From Roseobacter sp. (GTDB lineage: Bacteria; Pseudomonadota; Alphaproteobacteria; Rhodobacterales; Rhodobacteraceae), in NCBI RefSeq assembly GCF_024639605.1, contig NZ_JAHEHZ010000010.1, positions 1-42,496 on the forward strand: DNA of 42,496 nt. Direction: 5' to 3'. The notes beneath the pieces are model-generated. The model was not told the origin of the DNA. It saw only the letters and a list, made by a program, of their open reading frames with translations, and made no database searches. Positions 18,838 through 22,218 of the stretch are shown here, piece by piece. Numbering within the stretch: position 1 is the stretch's first letter; the number at the start of each line of letters is the position of its first letter. Made by a program: the position numbers and the translations under genes.

Positions 18838-20172
18838 ATGAGCGACTTATACGACAATCAGCGGCAGATGAGACAGATGCGCAAGGCCGCGATGCAGCGC
18901 GGTGTGGTGGCGATCCTGGATGTGGGCAGTTCAAAGATCTCCTGTCTGGTGCTGCGCTTTGACGGCACCGGCCCGCTGGGCGATGAGGGTGAGATCGGCT
19001 CGCTTGCCGGACAATCGGGGTTCCGGGTGATCGGTGCGGCCACAACCCGGTCACGCGGTGTGAAATTCGGTGAGGTCTGCGCAATGCAGGAGACCGAACG
19101 CGCGATCCGCACGGCGTTGCAGGGTGCCCAGAAGATGGCCGGGATCCGTGTCGATCATGTGATCGCCTGTTTCGCTGGTGCCGAGCCGCGCTCTTACGGG
19201 CTTGATGCCGCTCTGCCGCTCGAGGGCGAAGCCGTAGGAGAGCAGGACGTGGCACGCGTTCTGGCCGCCTGTGATGTACCGGATTACGGACCGGGCCGCG
19301 AGGTGCTGCATGCACAGCCGGTCAATTTTGCAATTGATCACCGCTCGGGTCTCGTCGACCCGCGCGGACAGCTTGGCACCATGCTGTCGGTGGATATGCA
19401 TATGCTCACCGTAGACGGACAGGCCGTGCAGCATCTGGCACATTGCATCAAGCGGTGTGATCTGGAACTCGCAGGGATCGCCTCGTCGGCCTATGTCAGC
19501 GGGTATTCCTCGCTGGTGGAGGATGAGCAGGAACTTGGCGCGGCCTGTATCGATCTGGGGGGCGGCACAACCGGTGTGTCGATTTTCATAAAGAAACACA
19601 TGATTTACGCCGACACCGTGCGGATGGGCGGCGATCACGTGACCTCTGATATCTCAATGGGTCTGCAGATCCCGATGGCCAATGCCGAAAGGATCAAGAC
19701 ATTTTACGGCGGCGTACATGCCACGGGTGTGGATGACCGCGAAATGATTGAAATCGGCGGTGACACGGGTGATTTTGAACACGATCGCAGGACCGTAAGC
19801 CGCGCTGAGGTGATCGGGATCATGCGTCCGCGGGTCGAGGAAATACTCGAAGAGGTGCGCGCACGGCTTGATGCAGCGGGCTTTGACCACCTTCCGAGCC
19901 AGCAAATTGTACTGACGGGCGGCGGCAGCCAGATCCCCGGGCTCGATGGTCTGGCGAGCCGGATTCTCGGACAGCAGGTGCGACTGGGCCGGCCGCTGCG
20001 TGTGCACGGGCTGCCGCAAGCTGCTACCGGTCCGGGATTTGCCTCGGTTGTCGGGCTGTCCCTTTTTGCGGCGCATCCGCAGGATGAATGGTGGGATTTT
20101 GATATTCCTGCCGAGGGCTATCCGAACAGGTCGCTGAAGCGTGCGGTGCGGTGGTTCCGGGACAACTGGTGA
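18838..20172 (+). CDS. ftsA: Cell division protein FtsA
   Basis: VVAILDVGSSKISCLV, CIDLGGGTTGVSIF, VLTGGGSQIPG actin-like ATPase motifs. Confidence 0.96.
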   Translation: MSDLYDNQRQMRQMRKAAMQRGVVAILDVGSSKISCLVLRFDGTGPLGDEGEIGSLAGQSGFRVIGAATTRSRGVKFGEVCAMQETERAIRTALQGAQKMAGIRVDHVIACFAGAEPRSYGLDAALPLEGEAVGEQDVARVLAACDVPDYGPGREVLHAQPVNFAIDHRSGLVDPRGQLGTMLSVDMHMLTVDGQAVQHLAHCIKRCDLELAGIASSAYVSGYSSLVEDEQELGAACIDLGGGTTGVSIFIKKHMIYADTVRMGGDHVTSDISMGLQIPMANAERIKTFYGGVHATGVDDREMIEIGGDTGDFEHDRRTVSRAEVIGIMRPRVEEILEEVRARLDAAGFDHLPSQQIVLTGGGSQIPGLDGLASRILGQQVRLGRPLRVHGLPQAATGPGFASVVGLSLFAAHPQDEWWDFDIPAEGYPNRSLKRAVRWFRDNW

Positions 20173-20241: not shown

Positions 20242-20337
20242 GAATCGGGTGACGCTCAATGACTCGCATGATAAGTTATCCACAAGGCCCGACAGAGGTC
20301 TGAAGGCGATCGAGCAGGCGCCCCTAAGTAGTGAATC
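20242..20337. promoter_or_regulatory. Cluster of three GANTC (CcrM-type) sites
   Basis: GAATC 20242-20246, GACTC 20261-20265, GAATC 20333-20337. Confidence 0.5.
20276..20284 (+). promoter_or_regulatory. Perfect DnaA box TTATCCACA in the ftsA-ftsZ gap
   Basis: Exact match to the DnaA consensus TTATCCACA. Confidence 0.6.
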
Positions 20338-20396
20338 ACCCCACCGTCCGGCACAGCTTCTGCGCCGTTCTCGTTAGGGTTGCATCATGTTCCAGG

Positions 20397-20421: not shown

Positions 20422-20553
20422 TCTTGCCGATAGCCCCGCTACCAGGCTCTCAACGCCTGATTGCACCCTACATTTTGTGGCAAATTTGCGTTTTTTGCGT
20501 GACCCTGGGGCCGGCAACGGATAAAGTCGTCAAGGAACAGGACCGGAAAAAAT

Positions 20554-20572
20554 ACCCGCGAATGCGGGTTTT
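20554..20572 (+). other. Terminator-like leader hairpin ACCCGC-GAAT-GCGGGT-TTT just upstream of ftsZ
   Basis: 6-bp stem, tetraloop, short T-run; ends ~20 nt before the ftsZ ATG. Confidence 0.5.
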
Positions 20573-20592: not shown

Positions 20593-22218
20593 ATGACACT
20601 TACTCTTTCGATGCCCGGACAGGCAGATCTTAAACCCCGTATCACCGTGTTTGGTGTGGGCGGTGCCGGCGGGAATGCCGTCAACAATATGATCGAGAAA
20701 GAGCTGGATGGTGTTGAATTCGTTGTCGCCAACACCGATGCCCAGGCGCTGCAGCAAGCACGCGCGGAAAACCGCGTGCAACTCGGCGTGAAAGTGACCG
20801 AAGGACTTGGCGCGGGGGCGCGCGCATCCGTCGGCGCCGCAGCCGCAGAGGAAAGCATCGAAGAGATCGTGGATCATCTGGCCGGCGCGCATATGTGCTT
20901 TATCACCGCCGGTATGGGGGGTGGCACCGGAACCGGCGCGGCGCCGATCATCGCTCAGGCCGCGCGTGAGCTGGGTGTTCTGACTGTCGGCGTCGTCACC
21001 AAGCCCTTCCAGTTTGAGGGCGCCAAGCGGATGCGCCAGGCCGAAGACGGTGTCGAGGCCCTGCAGAAGGTCGTCGATACGCTGATCATCATTCCCAACC
21101 AGAACCTGTTCCGTCTGGCCAATGAAAAAACCACCTTCACCGAAGCATTCTCGATGGCGGACGATGTGCTCTATCAGGGCGTCAAAGGTGTCACCGATCT
21201 GATGGTCCGGCCGGGCCTTATAAATCTCGATTTTGCCGATGTACGCGCCGTAATGGACGAAATGGGTAAGGCGATGATGGGCACCGGCGAAGCTGACGGC
21301 GAAGATCGTGCAGTTCAGGCGGCAGAAAAAGCCATCGCCAATCCGCTGCTGGATGAAATCAGCCTGCGCGGCGCCAAGGGCGTGCTTATCAATATCACGG
21401 GCGGGCATGACCTGACACTCTTCGAGCTCGATGAGGCGGCCAACCGGATCCGCGAAGAGGTGGACCCGGAAGCAAACATCATCGTCGGTTCCACACTCGA
21501 CACCGATATGGGCGGCCTGATGCGGGTCAGCGTTGTTGCCACCGGCATCGACGCCGCCGATGTGAATGCCGATATGCCGGTTCCGCGCCGGTCGCTTTCC
21601 GAACCGTTGCGCCAGCCTGCCGCGGTCGAAGAAGAAGTGGCGCCCGCCGCCGTGGCCGTCGAACCCGAACCGCAGCAGGAAGTCGCTCTGCGCGACACTG
21701 ACGAGCCGGGTCTCTTTGAAACCCTGGACGTTGAACAGGCCGCGGCCTCCGATATGGCCGAGGATATCTTTGCCGAGGACACGCAGCAGGCCGCTGACGA
21801 TCTGCCGCCGCCTGCGTATCAGCCCCAAGTCGCGGCGTTCGAGCCGCGCCGCGATGCGCCCGAAGCACAGGCCGAAGCATTTGTCGCACCGCGCGCTCCT
21901 GCCCCCGGCACGCCCTCACCGGAAGCTCTTGCCCGCCTGCGCGCGGCTGCCGAGAAGGCCGCACCGCAGACCGTTTCCGATCACCAGGCACGCGTTGCCC
22001 GCGAAGCTGCCCAACAGGGCGAACGCCCGCGCTTTGGGATAAACTCGCTGATCAACCGGATGACAGGTCACGGCGAAGGTGCCCCGCAGCCAGCGCCGCG
22101 CCAGCAACCAAAGGTTCAGCATCGCAGTGCCGCACCCGCTCCGATGCCTCAGGATCAGGTGGACCCCGATCAGGAACGCATCGAAATTCCGGCATTTCTG
22201 CGTCGCCAAGCGAACTGA
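20593..22218 (+). CDS. ftsZ: Cell division protein FtsZ
   Basis: [29 protein letters not shown] tubulin-like GTPase motifs; C-terminal [13 protein letters not shown] peptide. Confidence 0.98.

Follow-up and report, generated by a model that had tools for sequence, protein, structure and literature searches.

The gap between ftsA and ftsZ in this Roseobacter genome contains a cluster of one DnaA box and three GANTC sites, which marks a conserved distal promoter ahead of ftsZ with a predicted sigma-70-like core of GTGACG-N17-TAAGTT. In our preferred reading, to which we assign a probability of about 60%, this is a cell-cycle-type promoter carrying GANTC sites and a DnaA box, and it transcribes a conserved two-hairpin RNA, either as a leader or as a small RNA of ~90 nt. 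To our knowledge, the coupling of replication and division in alphaproteobacteria other than Caulobacter is largely unknown. In this abundant marine group, the locus places both classical inputs on one small, testable promoter from which a candidate RNA would be made, and relatives with and without each of its parts offer natural controls.

The site cluster and its genomic background

We analyzed a stretch of 42,496 nucleotides, hereafter the window. The genes ftsA (18838..20172, TIGR01174) and ftsZ (20593..22218, TIGR00065) both lie on the forward strand, and the gap between the ftsA stop at 20172 and the ftsZ start at 20593 measures 420 bp. The FtsA protein is closest to those of named Roseobacter species, placing the source genome in this genus. 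The earlier note had described a perfect DnaA box together with GAATC, GACTC, and GAATC within the gap, and all four sites are indeed present on the forward strand at the positions given here. The first GANTC site (GAATC, 20242..20246) starts 7 bp 5' of the distal -35 hexamer. The second (GACTC, 20261..20265) is located within the 17-bp spacer of the distal promoter and is preceded by T, hence does not form CGACTC, and the third (GAATC, 20333..20337) lies 3' of the second hairpin, within the predicted transcript. The perfect DnaA box TTATCCACA (20276..20284) overlaps the -10 hexamer and the predicted start of the distal promoter.

As the earlier note had supposed, GANTC is depleted, with 25 occurrences in the window against 175 ± 12 expected from dinucleotide shuffles (~7-fold). 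In a 280-kb sample of the source genome, the density was 0.62 per kb in coding and 1.45 per kb in intergenic DNA, as divided by our own simple gene caller based on codon usage. At the intergenic rate, the probability of at least three GANTC sites in a given 96 bp is ~4e-4. The clustering also proved notable by direct count, being the sole group of at least three sites in at most 96 bp within the 280 kb sampled. The 3.67-Mb draft contains 24 perfect copies of TTATCCACA, as compared with 13 of the reversed control pattern, and ~0.003 copies are expected per 420-bp gap. Within the sampled regions of the source genome, which were picked around DnaA boxes and describe these boxes rather than an unbiased survey, a GANTC site was found within 150 bp of 8 of the 11 intergenic perfect boxes and of 0 of the 11 coding ones. 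A high general frequency of the sites could have made the cluster unremarkable; the GANTC background of the 280-kb sample and the DnaA-box count of the draft leave it notable.

Other loci with DnaA boxes or GANTC sites were observed as well. Positions 400-470 of L119 (G000:C64) are AT-rich and contain two perfect DnaA boxes 36 bp apart together with TTATCCCCC, possibly a replication origin. At 2743-2780 of L118 (G000:C45), a gene for a Crp/Fnr-like regulator has right at its start a perfect DnaA box and, after it, GACTC and GATTC. Several GANTC sites and a near-DnaA box, TGTGGATAC, are found in 200 bp of intergenic DNA at 2318-2517 of L236 (about 402318-402517 of G008:C1).

A predicted distal promoter separate from the conserved ftsZ promoter

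To place the cluster in context, we compared 191 distinct ftsA-ftsZ gaps from Rhodobacteraceae. Their lengths are two-peaked, with 103 gaps shorter than 300 bp, most of them ~173 bp, and 88 gaps of at least 300 bp, peaking at 300-450 bp. Long and short gaps have the last ~175 bp before ftsZ in common. This conserved core contains the proximal ftsZ promoter, predicted in the window as GTGACC-N17-TAAAGT on the forward strand (20499..20527), and the pattern GTGAC-N17-TAnnnT recurs at -70 to -140 in 160/191 gaps. Closer to the gene, the hairpin ACCCGC-GAAT-GCGGGT (20554-20569), located just 5' of the ftsZ start, is kept in most Roseobacter, and CAGGCGGA, adjoining the start codon, is conserved family-wide.

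The cluster sits 5' of this shared core, in the part exclusive to long gaps. We also considered that it might be homologous to the widely conserved core promoter, and rejected this, as the cluster lies outside the ~173-bp core, in which both types of site are usually absent. The distal promoter of the window, ~340 bp upstream of ftsZ, consists of a predicted -35 hexamer GTGACG (20249..20254) and a predicted -10 hexamer TAAGTT (20272..20277) on the forward strand, separated by a 17-bp spacer (20255-20271), and relatives have the GTGAC-N17-TAnnnT pattern equally far from ftsZ. With the relaxed pattern GTGAC-N16-18-TAnnnT, a second promoter is found at about -320 to -360 in 42 of the 88 long gaps. 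A generic sigma-70 scan called no promoter, GTGAC/TAnnnT scoring under its cut-off. A GANTC site starts 6-10 bp 5' of the -35 hexamer in 16 of these 42 distal promoters, including the GAATC at 20242 of the window. In a stricter set, GANTC falls within the 18 bases that precede and run into the -35 hexamer in 14/36 distal promoters, as compared with 0-7 for eleven control palindromes. Comparison of the gaps, akin to the alignment proposed in the earlier note, revealed that the placement of the promoter, the GANTC sites, and the DnaA box recurs across genera. The same comparison does not support the interpretation of the earlier note as it stands: the promoter is distal, the proximal one is separate and more widely conserved, and the first product is probably the two-hairpin RNA.

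The exact three-GANTC layout is lineage-specific; the nearest relative, G008, has two sites, and for the third one it has a GANTC at -259 from ftsZ. On a quick FtsA-FtsZ tree, the long or short state of the gap switches ~34 times, indicating that the distal module was gained or lost repeatedly across the family. Judging from these state changes and from the absence of the whole module in about half of the sampled genomes, the distal module is dispensable.

The DnaA box and the sign of regulation

Perfect DnaA boxes are present in 21/173 gaps of up to 600 bp, against a mean of 0.18 and a maximum of 4 for permuted 9-mers. On the forward strand at -345 to -295, they occur in 13/88 long gaps and in none of 300 permuted draws. 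In 15 genomes, the perfect box lies over the -10 hexamer or the start of a distal or proximal promoter (permuted mean 0.06, maximum 4), these counts being of genomes that are not all independent. In most promoters carrying a box, its first base lies 4-5 bases past the start of the -10 hexamer, and in some genomes, e.g., L070, L074, L077, and L189, a box is found on the proximal ftsZ promoter. Most Roseobacter species have no DnaA box at this position, and on the tree its state switches at least 19 times, pointing to repeated gain and loss. The location over the -10 hexamer and the start favors repression, or at least a mode differing from simple activation. It suggests that DnaA represses the distal promoter, where it would obstruct the polymerase, although DnaA may instead activate it.

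GANTC sites and a possible CcrM/GcrA input

In Caulobacter, DnaA and CcrM methylation of a promoter CGACTC raise ftsZ transcription (PMC3708114; PMC3193534; PMC8203912), DnaA being an ftsZ activator (PMC3193534; PMC8203912). CGACTC has been described at ftsZ in Caulobacter and, in many cases, in Rhodobacterales, and a link between CcrM and ftsZ in Rhodobacterales was already proposed (PMC3708114). The Caulobacter-type CGACTC motif was not found in the gap of the window, which has TGACTC instead; several sister Roseobacter carry CGACTC near -248. The source genome contains a GcrA gene (PF07750) and a gene for a methyltransferase with a CcrM-type RAMA domain (PF18755), an assignment of domain and not of activity. 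One GANTC just 5' of the -35 hexamer and another in the spacer would fit an input from GcrA and methylation. The earlier note had proposed that DnaA and CcrM/GcrA both feed into ftsZ, with DnaA promoting its transcription. The two inputs are partly supported, as the sites lie on a conserved promoter, recur in other genera, and are accompanied by GcrA and CcrM-type genes, but a DnaA box placed over the -10 hexamer and the start favors repression rather than activation in the form proposed.

A probable, conserved two-hairpin RNA element

Immediately 3' of the DnaA box, the predicted RNA begins with the hairpin AGGCC-C-GACA-G-A-GGUCU (HP1, 20285..20301, forward strand), which is followed on the same strand by a second hairpin (HP2, 20305..20322) with the constant loop GAGCAG (20312-20317) and covarying arms. 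The GAGCAG loop is found at -345 to -235 in 67/88 long gaps, as compared with 7/103 short gaps when searched anywhere. We assessed HP2 by swapping arms between genomes, which needs no alignment. The arms pair over 4.45 bp within a genome and over 3.39 ± 0.14 bp after swapping, the highest of 1000 swaps reaching 3.86 bp, and outside the genus Roseobacter the values are 4.47 and 3.33 bp. Over all tests, they ranged over 4.3-4.5 and 3.3-3.4 bp with a standard deviation of 0.14-0.17, and the difference held after removal of duplicates. HP2 is represented by 45 distinct arm pairs with compensatory arm change and a constant loop. In an alignment of 36 sequences, which was fitted by a covariance model and hence leans to its own structure, changes on both sides affect 8/12 pairs, the number of such cells being 17, whereas shuffles give 5.6 and 0/500 of them reach 17, and RNAalifold reports compensatory change in 7/10 pairs. 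The pair count on 17 close relatives alone was unconvincing, so that the wider set was needed, and in distant members HP1 came out misaligned when MAFFT was used by itself. The RNA of the window folds no better than shuffled sequences (z of 0.15 for 95 nt and -0.36 for 43 nt).

A constant loop with changing arms indicates RNA, since a site for a DNA-bound protein would keep its arms. The distal promoter thus probably gives rise to a two-hairpin RNA, either a structured leader or a small RNA. Across 180 genomes of the family, the strongest matches of the covariance model, R1, lie in the ftsA-ftsZ gap, where the top seven were compared with FtsA coordinates, and none of the strongest matches falls outside this gap; the source genome has one match. 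Relocation of the RNA gene elsewhere in short-gap genomes was considered and dropped, as no convincing match was found there with R1, a model that is not very sensitive. Pairing of the HP2 loop with CTGCTC in the ftsZ leader was likewise rejected because CTGCTC is not conserved. No family of Rfam 15 matched near the gathering threshold, and the literature searched, most of it outside subscription journals, contains no description of an RNA between ftsA and ftsZ. The distal promoter with two putative inputs would be a variation on known control of division genes.

As for the 3' end, a GC-rich stem with a weakly T-rich tail (20349..20378, forward strand) could be a partial terminator. Terminator-like stems near -200 to -225 reach the threshold in 19/88 long gaps, as compared with 6.3 expected in shuffles, which is a modest enrichment and a weak signal. 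The RNA may end near 20370, at a length of ~90 nt.

In Rhodobacteraceae, the leader RNA UpsM at the head of the dcw cluster is targeted by the small RNA StsR (PMC5089854). In the mraZ leader, the UpsM region, the 34 bases of TCCGGCGCGCGAGCGAGCAGACATCCCCCCAGGT (629-662 of the window) are near-invariant in 28/30 leaders and have the 7-mer CGAGCAG in common with the HP2 loop upstream of ftsZ. When R1 was compared with the mraZ leader, only the CGAGCA loop matched, without similarity in sequence and structure, and we rejected derivation from the UpsM leader because nothing matches beyond the loop. The common 7-base loop may be a coincidence. The UpsM type of arrangement, in which the downstream gene has no promoter of its own, does not apply here, as ftsZ has the separate predicted proximal promoter.

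Proposed mechanism and alternatives

From the observed sites, their conservation, the covariation, and the gene content, we infer transcription from the distal promoter, binding by GcrA and DnaA, a sign of regulation, and a fate of the RNA. GcrA and RNA polymerase would use the methylated GANTC sites at the distal promoter, and passage of the replication fork would leave them hemimethylated and thereby change promoter output. DnaA over the -10 hexamer and the start would lower this output until initiation relieves the repression. The RNA with HP1 and HP2 would either extend through to ftsZ, forming a structured leader, or end in part near 20370, yielding a small RNA of ~90 nt, with ftsZ keeping its independent proximal promoter.

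The most serious competitor, possible although less probable than our preferred reading, is an independent gene for a trans-acting small RNA, terminating ahead of the proximal ftsZ promoter and working like UpsM. The RNA has its own predicted promoter, terminator-like stems cluster at -200 to -225, and CGAGCAG is near-invariant in the mraZ/UpsM leader too. However, the terminator is weak, R1 has no sequence-structure match with the mraZ leader, and the strongest matches include no copy beyond the ftsA-ftsZ gap. Somewhat less likely still is an additional, Caulobacter-like ftsZ promoter, on which DnaA and methylated GANTC sites would activate ftsZ directly and the hairpins would be incidental or stabilize the 5' end of the mRNA. 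It has a precedent in Caulobacter (PMC3708114; PMC3193534), and the DnaA boxes on the proximal promoter of some genomes suggest that selection acts on ftsZ output. Yet the box over the -10 hexamer and +1 is unlike the usual activator site, and a constant loop with compensatory arms in 45 arm pairs is unexpected for incidental hairpins.

That HP2 is an inverted-repeat site for a DNA-binding protein rather than RNA is improbable. Its location just 3' of the promoter would suit such a site, but a protein site would keep its arms and leave the spacer free, and here the GAGCAG spacer is kept while the arms covary. We regard a functionless chance cluster as the most improbable explanation of all. 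The exact layout is confined to the source lineage, and G008 has two further loci with at least three GANTC sites in at most 96 bp, clusters of similar density, elsewhere in the 400 kb sampled. The positions of promoter, GANTC sites, and DnaA box are nevertheless conserved across genera relative to permuted controls, and these controls, together with the genome background, led us to reject chance clustering.

A more speculative extension of the preferred reading, the promoter with a two-hairpin RNA, appears doubtful to us, though well above these last explanations in likelihood. In it, an undescribed Rhodobacteraceae RNA from a DnaA- and CcrM/GcrA-gated promoter would set the FtsZ level in cis or in trans, with its CGAGCAG loop common to the UpsM leader. 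If true, a single RNA or protein partner could recognize the gene cluster at both of its ends.

Comparison with known systems

The ftsZ promoter of Caulobacter crescentus resembles the locus in its GANTC in the promoter core, its DnaA box or boxes, its place ahead of ftsZ, and the presence of GcrA and CcrM-type genes. Unlike the Caulobacter promoter, the one described here is a distal, second promoter. No full CtrA site (TTAA-N6-8-TTAA) was found in the 420-bp gap, TGACTC and GAATC replace CGACTC, the DnaA box lies over -10/+1, and a structured RNA is predicted immediately 3'. With UpsM, the element has in common the gene cluster and the family, a hairpin leader with possible partial termination, and CGAGCAG. 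In contrast to UpsM, it precedes ftsZ instead of mraZ, has a predicted DnaA/GANTC promoter of its own, and is short and weakly conserved beyond the loop and stems, and the covariance model does not match both. In E. coli, the antisense RNA StfZ also originates from the ftsA-ftsZ region (PMC9628754). Both RNAs thus come from the ftsA-ftsZ boundary, but StfZ is antisense to ftsZ, whereas the element described here would be made from the sense strand, upstream of the gene.
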